This document shows, piece after piece, positions 20,898 through 27,330 of a stretch of DNA of 64,000 nt. A program made the translations under genes and the position numbers. This stretch comes from Bacteriovorax sp. Seq25_V (lineage in GTDB: Bacteria > Bdellovibrionota > Bacteriovoracia > Bacteriovoracales > Bacteriovoracaceae), in the NCBI RefSeq assembly GCF_000447795.1, contig NZ_AUNI01000015.1, forward strand, positions 372,001 to 436,000, written 5' to 3'. Below the pieces are notes generated by a model that did no database searches, had not been told where the DNA came from, and saw nothing but the letters and a program-made list of their open reading frames with translations. Every line of letters begins with the position of its first letter. Position 1 is the first letter of the stretch.

Positions 20898-21626
20898 ATG
20901 AATAAATGTAATAGAGATATTATCTTAAGCAATCTAGATCGAATTAAGGAAGGTATCATTCATTCTTGCCAGCGAGTCGGAAGAAATCCATCTGAAATTA
21001 ATATACTTCCAGTTACTAAAACCCGAAGTTTAGAAGAGGTTTCTTGTCTTCGAGACATTGGTTATCGTGAATTCGGAGAAAATCTTGTTAAGGAAGGGGT
21101 TAGGAAATACACTACAAGTGAAAATGGAATATGGATAATGATAGGTCATCTTCAAACGAATAAAGTTAAAGATGTTGTTCGTTTTGCAAAAGAAGTCCAT
21201 TCTGTTGATAGTATAAAGCTGATTAATGCATTAGAAAAAGAATTGCAGCGATCTAATAAGATTATGCGCGGAATGCTTCAGGTAAATACTTCTGGGGAGA
21301 CATCAAAATATGGGTTTTCAGAAGCTGAACTTTTTGACAATTTGGATGAAATATCAAAATTAGAGTACTTGAAAATTGATGGAGTGATGACTCTTGCTCT
21401 TAATTCGAAAAATGAAGCCGATGTAAGAAAGTGCTTTGAAAAATTAAAAAGCATTCAAACAAAGATTAATAATATGAATGTTCTAGAAAATGAAGTTACA
21501 CGAATTTCAATGGGGATGAGTGGGGATTACAAAATTGCAATCGAGGAAGGGGCTACTGATCTCAGATTAGGGCAGGCGATCTTTGGACCACGTGAAACAC
21601 CCGATTCGTTTTATTGGCCGGCCTAG
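20898..21626 (+). CDS. YggS/PLPBP-family pyridoxal phosphate homeostasis protein
   Basis: 242 residues of the YggS (PROSC) family, a PLP-binding protein that keeps free vitamin B6 balanced rather than a classical enzyme. PLP Lys lies in LPVTKTRS; other motifs are FGENLVKEG, IGHLQTNK, the HSVDS strand, and the C-terminal ISMGMSGDY and LRLGQAIFG. The start region overlaps the T-tract of the terminator before it, so it may receive its own promoter or read-through. Confidence 0.9.
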   Translation: MNKCNRDIILSNLDRIKEGIIHSCQRVGRNPSEINILPVTKTRSLEEVSCLRDIGYREFGENLVKEGVRKYTTSENGIWIMIGHLQTNKVKDVVRFAKEVHSVDSIKLINALEKELQRSNKIMRGMLQVNTSGETSKYGFSEAELFDNLDEISKLEYLKIDGVMTLALNSKNEADVRKCFEKLKSIQTKINNMNVLENEVTRISMGMSGDYKIAIEEGATDLRLGQAIFGPRETPDSFYWPA

Positions 21627-22300
21627 GGTGAAGTAAGGATTAAGTAACTACGCCGTACGGCCTTCAGAAATTTAAGATAACTCTCTTCTTTTGAGCGTAC
21701 TTTCTTTTCTTGAAGTTGTGCAACTTGTGCGTCTACAGTTGATTCAAAACATATTGGTAGCTTCCCTTCTTTCATAAGAATAAAATCAGCGGCAAGTCTG
21801 CCAGTCCTTCCATTACCATCCTTGAAAATGTGTAATGTGGTTAGCCAGAGATATATATGAAAGGCCTTCTCAAAAGTACAAGAGAAGTTTCCTCTTAGGA
21901 TAAGGTTAGAAAAATCTTGTGTGGCATCTTCAATAAAACTGGCGTCAATATAGCTAATGTCATTACAATATATAGGACCTGACCTAATATTATCTTCATC
22001 CCCAATAAGTATCGCATTTATTTTTGAAACTAGATTAATATCTAAATTGCTGTCATTTTGTATTTCTCTACTTATATACTGATTTGCTGCATCCCATTTG
22101 TAAAGACTGTCTGTAACCACTTTAGTATTTGTCGTGGAGGCAAAAAGTCTAGCTCTTGCGAGAGTTGACCAGTTTGGTCTTTCACAATGATTAAGCTTTC
22201 CCTCAAGAGTTTTGATTTCTTGAATGAGTTTATGAAAGATCTCCCCATGAGTTGTATCAAGGGGAGTTTTTAAAAATGTGAGAATTTCTCTTGAATTCAT
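21623..22300 (-). CDS. Fic-domain protein (likely AMP transferase)
   Basis: 225 residues. The full Fic motif HIFKDGNGRTGR is present near residue 157-168, so transfer of AMP to a target hydroxyl is expected. No (S/T)xxxE(G/N) inhibitory helix is obvious in the protein or its neighbour. It lacks a signal peptide. Its ATG shares one base with the stop of the upstream secreted-protein gene (TAATG), so the two are translationally coupled. The target is unknown. Confidence 0.88.
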   Translation of the reverse strand: MNSREILTFLKTPLDTTHGEIFHKLIQEIKTLEGKLNHCERPNWSTLARARLFASTTNTKVVTDSLYKWDAANQYISREIQNDSNLDINLVSKINAILIGDEDNIRSGPIYCNDISYIDASFIEDATQDFSNLILRGNFSCTFEKAFHIYLWLTTLHIFKDGNGRTGRLAADFILMKEGKLPICFESTVDAQVAQLQEKKVRSKEESYLKFLKAVRRSYLILTSP

Positions 22301-22842
22301 TACTTTACTTGAATAAAGAATTGGTTCTTGTGCCCATCTTCTCCAAAAAATAAGTCTTGAGCATCATCAATTTTCAAAAATCTATCCTTACCAATCCTAC
22401 TGATGGTCATGAGCGAATTGTGAAATCCTTGACTACAATTTAACGTCGAATCACAGTTGTATAATTTAAATTTATTTTTTCCAAGTCTGTCCACACGATA
22501 TGTCATGTCGTCATAGCTCTCATATCCATCTTCGAATACTTGTTTGAATGTAAAAGCATATTCCATTTTTAAATGATCTTCAGTGTGAAGAATGTCTTCA
22601 TCACGATTGTCGCTAAATTCAAGAACAATTTTATACTTGGCGAATACTTTGTCTGAAGTTTCTCTTGCCGGATCGTATTTCCAGTAATAACCATCAAATG
22701 TAGCAGTACTTTCAAAAGTAAAATCAGCAAGCTTTTCAAATTGTTTTCTCACTGCCATCTTTACTTCAGATAGCTCTCGAGCTTGAACATTTACAAGTGG
22801 ATTCATCATAATCAGCGAAGTTAGTAGAATTTCTTTTTTCAT
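22300..22842 (-). CDS. Secreted protein co-transcribed with fic
   Basis: 180 residues with a signal peptide (MKKEILLTSLIMMNPLVNVQA). The mature protein is predicted mostly beta, rich in Tyr, Phe and Asp/Glu (FDGYYWKYDP, KMEYAFTFKQVF), with one Cys pair (YNCDSTLNCS). No family recognised. Coupled by TAATG to the Fic gene and divergent from a LysR regulator. Its export contrasts with the cytoplasmic partner, so a toxin-antidote relation is not obvious. Confidence 0.72.
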   Translation of the reverse strand: MKKEILLTSLIMMNPLVNVQARELSEVKMAVRKQFEKLADFTFESTATFDGYYWKYDPARETSDKVFAKYKIVLEFSDNRDEDILHTEDHLKMEYAFTFKQVFEDGYESYDDMTYRVDRLGKNKFKLYNCDSTLNCSQGFHNSLMTISRIGKDRFLKIDDAQDLFFGEDGHKNQFFIQVK

Positions 22843-23966: not shown

Positions 23967-24890
23967 ATGAAGCTTGGTTTACTTGTGCCTATTCTTGTTG
24001 CTACGACAAGTGTCTCTGCTAAGATTACAGATCTTCAATACATGCCGGCTAAAGGTGCATTCTTTTCTAAGACTGAATTCTCTCAAGAACAAGGGGAAAT
24101 TGAATTATCATATTTTGGTAAGAACGTTTCAAAATCAGAAGTTGATGAGACTAATGTTAATCAAACACTTCTTTATACTTCTACTGATAGTTTAAGTTTC
24201 GGAGTTGGGCTCTCGTATAACATTAAAAGTGAGACTGAATCGAAATATGGTCCAGGTTCGACGATCAATGGAACAATACGAAACTATGAAAGTAGTGGTT
24301 TAAGAGATATCGAGTTGGTGTTAAAAAAGAGGCTACGCTCTGAAGAAACAATCGTTGATCTCTCTGGTGTTTATTCACCAAAAACTGGAGATGCTGAATC
24401 TGCTTCGACCTCAAAAAAAGGAAATGCATTTGATGGGGGTTCTAGTGTTGGAGCAACTTTGGAAATTGGTGGTTCAAGAGGGCATATTCAGTATAGTGGT
24501 AGTCTTTCTATTATTCACGATACAGAACGTGAGGTTAGGGATCTTTCTAATAATACGATGACAAAGTATAAGAGTACTACAAATGTGGTAGTCGGAGCAG
24601 AGATAAAAGTTCAAACATCAGAAATTTTCTTCCTAAAGGGGTCTCTTGGAGTAGCAAGCTTAGATGATCAAAATTATAGAGAAGCAGGAGATACTACTGA
24701 TACAGTCATTGAAAGAACCATTGGAGTTGTTGGGGGAGCTGCTGCTCAGTATAAATTAAGTGAATCTAGTGTCGTTGATGTTGGGTTATTCCGATCAATT
24801 AGTGATTATAATGTTTATGAAGGTTCGACTTCTATATTTGGAGATTATGAATCAACTGTATTCAATATAGGATTTTCGATAGAAATATAA
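23967..24890 (+). CDS. Outer-membrane beta-barrel-like protein
   Basis: 307 residues. Signal peptide ends VSA/KI. The mature part alternates aromatic/hydrophobic and polar residues in many short strands (LSFGVGLSYNIKSE, HIQYSGSLSIIHD, VVVGAEIKVQTSEIFF) and ends in a hydrophobic strand FNIGFSIEI, suggesting an outer-membrane barrel of about 12 strands. No specific channel family recognised. GGGAG precedes the ATG. Monocistronic, followed by a hairpin. Confidence 0.75.
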   Translation: MKLGLLVPILVATTSVSAKITDLQYMPAKGAFFSKTEFSQEQGEIELSYFGKNVSKSEVDETNVNQTLLYTSTDSLSFGVGLSYNIKSETESKYGPGSTINGTIRNYESSGLRDIELVLKKRLRSEETIVDLSGVYSPKTGDAESASTSKKGNAFDGGSSVGATLEIGGSRGHIQYSGSLSIIHDTEREVRDLSNNTMTKYKSTTNVVVGAEIKVQTSEIFFLKGSLGVASLDDQNYREAGDTTDTVIERTIGVVGGAAAQYKLSESSVVDVGLFRSISDYNVYEGSTSIFGDYESTVFNIGFSIEI

Positions 24891-24900
24891 CTTCTATAGA

Positions 24901-24921
24901 GGCCCTGTTATAGATAGGGCC
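24901..24921 (+). terminator. Terminator hairpin after the barrel gene
   Basis: GGCCCT (24901-24906) pairs with AGGGCC (24916-24921); a short T-rich stretch follows. Confidence 0.6.
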
Positions 24922-25002: not shown

Positions 25003-25500
25003 TTAGTGCAACTTTCGACCAAGATATTCTGAGAAATCCAATGCTTCCTTAAGATTTGGATATTTATCGAAACATTTTTTTGCACGTGGATCTTTAAAGA
25101 AGAAATCTTTGGAGACAGGGCTATGTTCAATTACTGTACTGTATACACGTTCCCATCTTATTTTTTGAGCTTCTTCTTCCTGTAAGTTTATATTTGGATA
25201 GGCAACATAGCCCGTTTTATCTGCATCAGGATGGTTAGGTTGATAAATTAGTATAGGACTTTCTTGGCTGCTTACAATTTGGCAAAAGCCATTTTTACAA
25301 TCCTTTGCAATCTTCCTTTTATAGAATCCACCTTCAGGGGTTCTTGTGGTTTTAACATTAGCAATATTCGATGATATAACTTCGATTTTTTGGTAAAGAA
25401 TATTTAAATCTTGGCAATGTTGTTCAACTTGTTGATCAGTGACCTTTGATTCCTGAGTGCAGCTAATAAATATAAGAAGGAAAAGGATAATTTTCATCAT
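25003..25500 (-). CDS. FlgC-like lipoprotein
   Basis: 165 residues. The N-terminus (MMKIILFLLIFISC) looks like a lipoprotein signal with Cys14, although Phe at -3 is less usual. The mature part keeps the plan of flagellar proximal-rod protein FlgC: VISSNIANVKTTRTPEGGFY near the start, YRR-like YKRK, then YQPNHPDADKTGYVAYPN, INLQEE and a degraded end. In real FlgC the N- and C-terminal helices build the rod; here the C-terminal helix is replaced by a Cys-containing tail. Last gene after menB and eamA, overlapping eamA by 4 bp. It looks like a rod protein reused as an envelope lipoprotein. Confidence 0.78.
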   Translation of the reverse strand: MMKIILFLLIFISCTQESKVTDQQVEQHCQDLNILYQKIEVISSNIANVKTTRTPEGGFYKRKIAKDCKNGFCQIVSSQESPILIYQPNHPDADKTGYVAYPNINLQEEEAQKIRWERVYSTVIEHSPVSKDFFFKDPRAKKCFDKYPNLKEALDFSEYLGRKLH

Positions 25501-26378
25501 TCTTGTTCTGGGTGCTTCTGTATATTTGCAAACTTAGGAATTAGTGCCACAGCAATAAGAATAATTACTGCACCAATACCTCCTTTAACTCCAATCTTTT
25601 CGTCAAAGAAGAAATAGCCAAAAATGCTTGCAAAGATCGACTCACTCAAAAATACAAGTCCCACAATGTGCGGAGGAGTTTTCTTTTGAGCATAGATTTG
25701 AAGTGAGAATGCTATTAGTGATGAGAATATTGAAAGGATAATGAATCCATAAAGACTCGATGGAAAAATTAGTGCCTTCGCATTTATAAGTGGAGCAAGA
25801 CTCACTGGCCCTTCAAAAACAAGAGCGATTACTACGGAAATAAATCCAATCATCGTACATTGAAGGAAGTTGAAATTTATTGTGTCATATTTTTCAGCGT
25901 AGATATCCGTGAGGATAATATGTCCAGAAAAGAAAATAGCGCAAAGAACGATATAGAAATCTCCCATGTTGAAACCATCTAGTTTTAAGTCACACATGAG
26001 AAAAATTCCAAACATTGCAAGGGCGAGTAGCGCCCAAAATGTTTTACGAAGTTTTTGCTTAAAAATAATCACTGAAATAATTGGCGTGAAGACAGCGTAG
26101 AAGACAGTTAAGAAACCGGCCTTTGCCATTGTCGTCATTGAGATACCAATTGTCTGAGTAATCATTGCTCCAGTGAGAAAAAGGGAGCAAAAGAAAGCTC
26201 CTTTAAATTCTTTGAAGCCTCGACGATAGGCGAGGATAGGAATTGCTATTAGGGCCGCGAATAAATAGCGAAGCCCCTGTGACCAGAGAGGAGAGTAGTC
26301 AATGAAAGTAAATCTCGTCCCCGCGAAACCAAGCCCCCAAATAAGACAAGCAAATGAGAGTAATAGAATCCCTGCCAT
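25497..26378 (-). CDS. EamA/DMT-family transporter
   Basis: 293 residues with about ten transmembrane helices in two repeats of five, the EamA fold. Motifs include CLIWGLGFAGTRF at the start and TPIISVIIFKQKL in the first half, and SESIFASIFGYFFFDEK in the second repeat, typical of drug/metabolite transporters. Substrate unknown. It starts 3 bases after menB and overlaps the FlgC-like gene by 4 bp, so the three genes form one operon. Confidence 0.88.
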   Translation of the reverse strand: MAGILLLSFACLIWGLGFAGTRFTFIDYSPLWSQGLRYLFAALIAIPILAYRRGFKEFKGAFFCSLFLTGAMITQTIGISMTTMAKAGFLTVFYAVFTPIISVIIFKQKLRKTFWALLALAMFGIFLMCDLKLDGFNMGDFYIVLCAIFFSGHIILTDIYAEKYDTINFNFLQCTMIGFISVVIALVFEGPVSLAPLINAKALIFPSSLYGFIILSIFSSLIAFSLQIYAQKKTPPHIVGLVFLSESIFASIFGYFFFDEKIGVKGGIGAVIILIAVALIPKFANIQKHPEQE

Positions 26379-26381
26379 AAC

Positions 26382-27275
26382 TTAGAAGTGCCAAGGAAAG
26401 TTAGAGTAATCCTGATCGCGCTTTTCAAGGAATGCATCGCGACCTTCTTGTGCCTCTGCAGTACCATAAGCAAGTCTTGTTGCTTCACCTGCAAATAATT
26501 GCTGACCAACAAGCCCATCATCAAGAAGGTTAAATCCAAACTTAAGCATTCTCATGGCCGTTGGTGATTTTGAATTCATTTCTTTTGCCCACTCTAGGGA
26601 AACTTTTTCAAGGTCTTTATGAGGAACAACTTTATTGATCATTCCCATTTCAAATGCTTCTTGTGCTGTATAGTTAAAACCACAGAAGAAAATTTCTCTT
26701 GCGCGCTTTTGTCCACATTGACGTGCAAGGTATGCTGAACCATAGCCAGAATCAAATGAAGCTACATCTGGATCTGTTTGTTTAAAGATTGCGTGTTCTT
26801 CAGAAGCGATTGTTAAGTCACATACAACATGAAGAGAGTGACCACCACCAACTGCCCAACCTGGAACAACGGCAACAACAACTTTTGGCATAAAACGAAT
26901 GAGTCTTTGAACTTCTAAGATGTGAAGGCGACCAAGTTTTGCTGGGTCAGGTGTACCTTCACCATCGACATACTTATATCCGTCTTTTCCTCTAATTCTT
27001 TGATCTCCACCTGAACAGAATGCCCATCCACCATCTTTTGGAGAAGGACCGTTACCAGTGATTAGAACAACACCAACTGATGACCACATACGAGCGTGAT
27101 CAAGGGCGCGATAAAGTTCGTCAACTGTTTGTGGTCTAAACGCATTTCTAACTTCTGGTCTATTGAATGCAATTCTTACTGTCCCTTGGTCTTTGGCCTT
27201 GTGGTAAGTAATATCCTCAAAGTTAAACCCTTCAACTTCATCCCATAAACTAGCGTCAAAAATATCTGAAACCAT
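26382..27275 (-). CDS. menB: 1,4-dihydroxy-2-naphthoyl-CoA synthase MenB
   Basis: Crotonase-fold enzyme that closes the second ring in menaquinone synthesis. Conserved features: RPEVRNAFRP, FCSGGDQRIRG, GWAVGGGHSLHVVCDL, FKQTDPDVASFDSGYGSAYL and a C-terminal FPWHF. The start is ATG 27275 because AGGAG lies directly upstream; an in-frame start 45 bases earlier has no such site. No other men genes are in the window. First gene of the eamA/FlgC-like operon. Confidence 0.93.
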   Translation of the reverse strand: MVSDIFDASLWDEVEGFNFEDITYHKAKDQGTVRIAFNRPEVRNAFRPQTVDELYRALDHARMWSSVGVVLITGNGPSPKDGGWAFCSGGDQRIRGKDGYKYVDGEGTPDPAKLGRLHILEVQRLIRFMPKVVVAVVPGWAVGGGHSLHVVCDLTIASEEHAIFKQTDPDVASFDSGYGSAYLARQCGQKRAREIFFCGFNYTAQEAFEMGMINKVVPHKDLEKVSLEWAKEMNSKSPTAMRMLKFGFNLLDDGLVGQQLFAGEATRLAYGTAEAQEGRDAFLEKRDQDYSNFPWHF

Positions 27276-27318
27276 ATCTCTCTCCTTCGAACTTTTTTTT
27301 TCGGATATTAGTCTTTTC

Positions 27319-27330
27319 ACGGTGCACCGT
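27319..27330. promoter_or_regulatory. 12-bp perfect palindrome ACGGTGCACCGT
   Basis: A GC-rich perfect palindrome between divergent menB and ybaK-type genes. It stands out in AT-rich DNA and could be an operator for either side. Confidence 0.45.

Follow-up and report, generated by a model that had tools for sequence, protein, structure and literature searches.

A predicted Sec-exported paralogue of the flagellar rod protein FlgC with a four-cysteine signature in Bdellovibrionota

The axial proteins of the bacterial flagellum are generally understood to work in polymerized form after export by way of the flagellar type III apparatus. Lipid-anchored proteins are also known at the basal body, where FlgH of the L-ring and FlgP act as periplasmic accessory lipoproteins; to our knowledge, their folds are unrelated to that of the FlgC-like protein considered here. 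A literature search, with subscription journals mostly outside its coverage, retrieved no description of an exported or lipid-anchored FlgC paralogue. In this study, we analyzed a gene in a 64,000-nucleotide stretch of Bacteriovorax sp. Seq25_V (contig NZ_AUNI01000015.1, positions 372,001 to 436,000), hereafter the window, whose coordinates are used throughout. The genome comprises 3.45 Mb in 21 contigs, and its nearest relatives are Bacteriovorax, Halobacteriovorax, and other Bacteriovoracaceae. The gene (25003..25500, minus strand) is intact and encodes a predicted exported FlgC-like lipoprotein precursor of 165 amino acids (P0001). With a probability of roughly 80%, we consider it to be a Sec-exported paralogue of FlgC and a member of an undescribed Bdellovibrionota family with a disulfide-stapled core, a figure that covers the identity and architecture of the protein and not its binding partner.

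Relationship of the window protein to FlgC

The first-pass annotation had proposed that a flagellar FlgC was reused here as an envelope lipoprotein, and both FlgC motifs that it quoted are found in the open reading frame. The NCBIfam model TIGR01395 (FlgC) matches residues 37–133 of the window protein (E = 2.8e-19) and likewise all 33 members of the family alignment (A4), and a search of its own genome links the protein to FlgC with E = 2e-17. The score of 69.7 bits misses the curated equivalog cut-off of 102.1 bits, so that by the NCBI rule the window protein is not FlgC itself. The genome does possess a separate, canonical flgC (162 bits against TIGR01395), located on another contig within a flgB-flgC-fliE-fliF-fliG-fliH-fliI-fliJ cluster, the neighbors being named from position and sequence. 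The window gene is distant from the flagellar genes, as had been claimed.

The AlphaFold model of the window protein, built from 22 family sequences, displays a FlgC-like fold with a mean predicted local distance difference test score of 91.4 and a predicted template-modeling score of 0.81. Among solved structures, it is matched best by proximal-rod FlgC chains (Foldseek E = 4e-7), and VIA-align superimposes residues 22–138 of the model on residues 4–130 of FlgC with a Z-score of 11.9 over 117 residues and 26% identity. FlgC alone was retrieved when the family profile was compared with PDB sequences, and a diverged member of the family (L081, subfamily II), modeled separately, again adopts the FlgC fold with a Z-score of 9.6. 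FlgB, FlgF, FlgG, and FlgE (PF00460, PF06429) match the window protein more weakly than FlgC in both profile and fold searches. Since the profile match and the alignment of the model with FlgC cover most of the protein, the similarity is global and not confined to low-complexity pieces, the outcome that the first-pass annotation had named as fatal to its proposal. A resemblance arising by chance or from low complexity would fit the score under the curated FlgC cut-off, but FlgC ranks first in the profile, fold, and solved-structure searches, which leaves this explanation with a negligible probability.

Export signal, helices, and cysteines

The N-terminus is occupied by a signal peptide and lipobox read from the sequence (MMKIILFLLIFIS-C14; 25459..25500, minus strand, as for all features of the gene below), with predicted lipidation of Cys14 and Thr at the +2 position. 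The sequence FISC fits the pattern [LVI][ASTVI][GAS]C following a hydrophobic signal, F at −3 being less usual. The lipobox cysteine is kept in seven relatives, and VTSC, LTSC, LISC, AVGC, LVGC, and LSSC occur at the aligned position, in agreement with the lipoprotein signal recognized earlier. As Asp is absent from +2, the protein would be sorted to the outer membrane under the Escherichia coli rule, and the lipid would hang it from the inner face of this membrane in this species and its relatives. The maximum N-terminal hydropathy is 1.8–3.9 in the exported proteins versus 0.6–1.7 in canonical FlgC; a hydrophobic export signal replaces the bare FlgC start. Judged from its sequence, such a Sec-type signal speaks against the flagellar type III system as the export route and against assembly into the rod.

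The conservation of 33 exported proteins (A4) was compared with that of 41 canonical FlgC sequences. The columns kept in both groups (N45, N48, TTRT, GG, Y60, Y86, P88, HPDA, GYV, P102, and E109) correspond to the elbow that joins the helices to the beta part of FlgC (TTRTxEGGxY and HPDAxxxGYVxxP). In the window protein, the first elbow segment (N45 IAN..TTRTPEGGFYK) spans residues 45–61 (25318..25368), and the second (P88-x-HPDADKTGYVAYP102) lies at 25195..25239. Canonical FlgC alone conserves the initial half of helix 1, portions of the D1 loop of about 20 residues, and most of the C-terminal helix, while conservation exclusive to the exported proteins is that of the cysteines.

The two helices of solved flagellar rods make the D0 polymer core. 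In the model, an N-terminal helix (residues 22–47; 25360..25437) corresponds to the N-terminal D0 helix of FlgC; in its first half, other residues stand in place of the canonical ones. The C-terminal rod helix had been reported as lacking; the model instead shows a helix at residues 106–125 (25126..25185), where FlgC has its own, followed by a unique tail. This helix is shortened and its residues are rewritten: the distal part is gone, together with the residues conserved at that place in canonical FlgC, and the canonical MxxMIxAxRxYEAN is not conserved. The conserved canonical helix-end residues (RM..ISSN; MxxMIxAxRxYEAN...KxM) are absent from the exported members. These losses bear on the idea of a variant rod subunit that is still built into the rod and replaces FlgC at some positions. 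The elbow sequence and the FlgC-like fold are compatible with such a subunit, but the protein begins with a hydrophobic or lipoprotein signal and not with a type III substrate start, the conserved D0 residues are lost and the C-terminal helix is shorter, and a lipid anchor would be expected to block axial stacking. We therefore regard a role as a rod subunit as very improbable.

Four cysteines were added to the FlgC framework. Cys29 (C1; 25414..25416) is invariant in the 33 exported members. Cys68 and Cys73 (C2 and C3; 25282..25299) flank the turn of a beta-hairpin (strands 63–69 and 72–77) to which the D1 loop of canonical FlgC has been cut, and Cys143 (C4; 25072..25074) lies in the tail CFDKYP...YLGR. 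The resulting spacing of 38/4/69 fits the definition of the exported family, which combines the signature C-x37..38-C-x3..7-C-x52..70-C with an N-terminal export signal and the FlgC elbow. The signature is present in 32 of the 35 exported proteins, and 40 of the 41 canonical FlgC sequences have no cysteine at all. A disulfide between C68 and C73 would close the hairpin, and one between C29 and C143 would tie the N-terminal helix to the C-terminal region. C29 is located close to where helix 1 begins; in the short and subfamily II forms, C4 is close to the end of the C-terminal helix, as expected of a staple between antiparallel helices if these cysteines pair. Such stapling would produce a compact, stable, non-polymerizing single FlgC core in the oxidizing periplasm. 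The genome encodes DsbB and VKOR, and its periplasm should therefore manage disulfide formation.

The exported family, its origin, and its genomic context

The survey searched 129 genomes from the taxonomic family of this species and 369 from the phylum Bdellovibrionota, and the loci were then read. About 33 genomes from six families of the phylum encode an exported FlgC paralogue. Subfamily I, to which the window protein belongs, comprises 11 sequences with the tail CFxKYP..YLGR, eight of which carry a lipobox, including SSGC in L075, which was missed by the pattern and judged by eye. Subfamily II contains 16 sequences with a soluble-type signal and an additional C-terminal beta domain, and the short forms are scarcely more than the FlgC core (e.g., 122–127 amino acids in L123, L125, L133, and L134). 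The lipobox is thus limited to part of subfamily I, and most members are exported without one. Accordingly, the proposed reuse of a flagellar part stands insofar as a FlgC homologue bears a lipoprotein signal, while the novelty does not hinge on the lipid anchor. The step had also been presented as an unusual one; reuse is plausible, but the gene belongs to a patchy, phylum-wide four-cysteine family and is no isolated oddity.

The same survey argues against a decaying, functionless duplicate. Long branches and patchy presence would suit a relic, but the frames are intact in about 33 genomes, the cysteines and elbow residues are invariant across strongly diverged members, and the orthologues of the window protein are 53–61% identical to it over the full length. 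We consider decay highly unlikely.

Several further observations were made on the family. In L081 (4061–4600, minus strand), residues 127–179 form a five-stranded beta domain fused C-terminally to the FlgC core, as in other subfamily II members. A Pfam search of this domain produced no convincing match, and a LolA/GerS-like identity, suggested by weak fold hits (Z ≤5.2), is not claimed. In two genera, the gene immediately preceding thyA encodes a small exported protein (L038:6997–7359, plus strand; L091:7274–7642, minus strand). These two proteins have a VPNIxxEEE stretch in common with the FlgC-like family and are possibly further-degraded relatives; their membership is doubtful, as they lack the four-cysteine signature and the supporting profile included one of them, and they were excluded from A4. 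One genome (G068) contains two different exported FlgC-like lipoprotein genes (L075 and L076), which may stem from two organisms, given its listed contamination of 9%.

In a maximum-likelihood tree, one branch separates 35 exported proteins from all canonical FlgC sequences, including those of other phyla, with a Shimodaira–Hasegawa-like approximate likelihood ratio test support of 98. The split survives without several of the longest rows and three invariant cysteine columns (92/94), and a single origin is recovered in 90% of the bootstrap trees of a reduced tree. One origin of the family is favored by these sequence comparisons rather than proved, because the columns are few, the branches long, and the tree unrooted. 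In three other phyla, sampled with 148, 199, and 198 genomes, strict thresholds returned canonical FlgC or nothing, as did the best 80 of 571 matches in a wider contig scan; no positive control was available there, and very diverged forms would escape.

The window gene is the last of an apparent operon, as the first-pass annotation stated. The operon starts with menB (1,4-dihydroxy-2-naphthoyl-CoA synthase; 26382..27320, minus strand; NF006186, E = 9.4e-175), followed by an EamA-family transporter gene (25497..26378, minus strand; PF00892, E = 1.1e-33), whose stop overlaps the start of the FlgC-like gene by 4 base pairs (ATGA). The gene therefore lies in a menB–EamA operon instead of a flgB/fliE context. 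On the proposed check for orthologues next to menB, the menB/transporter arrangement occurs in no other member among the loci listed; the operon is not conserved and therefore carries no functional message. Across about 36 loci compared, no listed neighbor is common beyond close relatives. An acetyltransferase-like gene (ELIVGxRISLKRH start) beside the exported FlgC-like gene in L075 (6784–7864) and L080 (7146–8235) is the clearest neighbor seen shared across genera, of which there are two.

Around the operon, a GC-rich, terminator-like inverted repeat (24901..24921), identified by consensus scan only, lies past the 3' ends of the operon and the convergent gene. The latter (23967–24890, plus strand) encodes an exported protein of 307 amino acids that appears beta-rich and porin-like by eye, and for which Pfam and NCBIfam yielded no match at E 1e-5. 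A Fic/DOC-family protein gene (21623–22300, minus strand; PF02661, E = 2.9e-8; motif HIFKDGNGRTGR) lies directly downstream of a small secreted protein gene (22300–22842), with a 1-base overlap.

Possible roles and comparison with described systems

The retained FlgC elbow would serve as a binding module. Tentatively, we prefer the flagellar basal body as its partner, e.g., the periplasmic rod, P-ring, or rod-cap proteins, where the exported protein might act as an assembly or stabilizing factor. The distribution of carriers mildly favors a link to the flagellum: 33 of the 322 phylum genomes with a FlgC match carry the family versus none of the 47 without (Fisher p = 0.009), a value uncorrected for kinship among genomes that are not independent. 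Four draft carrier genomes without a detectable normal flgC have matches to other axial proteins (FlgE/F/G-like).

Several observations weigh against this picture. Flagellar genes adjoin no exported member among the loci listed, and most flagellated relatives do not possess the exported paralogue, from which it follows that the protein is not a core flagellar part. The elbow conservation may reflect fold stability alone. As for the staple, the position of C4 differs between subfamilies I and II, and the lipoprotein member L080 lacks C4.

About equally likely as docking at the basal body is a co-option of the FlgC fold for a non-flagellar envelope job, for instance as a binding lipoprotein of the outer membrane or periplasm, perhaps with a part in predation or cell-wall remodeling. 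The scattered, solitary gene positions with unrelated neighbors, the alternation of lipidated, soluble, and two-domain forms, and the loss of polymer-forming helix residues are consistent with this possibility. However, the family is confined to genomes with flagellar genes, an association that is weak because the relatives are not independent, and neighbors, domains, and motifs point to no other pathway. It is conceivable, though short of an even chance, that one old duplication gave rise to a disulfide-stapled, Sec-exported envelope family that left the flagellum wholly and acquired a novel role in predatory bacteria and their relatives. Such a departure, if true, would plainly illustrate the exaptation of a drive-shaft component into an envelope protein, either soluble or held by a lipid anchor.

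Whether docked at the basal body or not, a phylum-wide family with the FlgC fold, a Sec signal, conserved cysteines, and in some members a predicted lipid anchor suggests that this fold can exist as a single envelope protein. The family may represent either an accessory of the flagellar motor that has gone unrecognized in Bdellovibrio-like bacteria, or else a flagellar part that underwent a rare exaptation. Since these genes match FlgC profiles, annotators could mistake their products for rod proteins of the flagellum.

Among the described systems, the window protein is closest to FlgC (TIGR01395; PDB 7cg0, 7bin, 8wlh, and 8z5s), which it resembles in fold over nearly its whole length and in the TTRTxEGGxY and HPDAxxxGYVxxP motifs. 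It differs from FlgC in its Sec/lipoprotein signal, four added cysteines, own C-terminal tail, D1 loop shorter by about 20 residues, lost helix-end residues, non-flagellar operon, and sub-cut-off equivalog score. FlgB, FlgF, FlgG, and FlgE belong to the same structural superfamily, with FlgC being clearly the better match. On general knowledge, FlgH and FlgP offer a possible analogy of role. Considering these comparisons, the sequences point to a protein whose fold and ancestry are known and whose location and mode of stabilization are new, as its function probably is.
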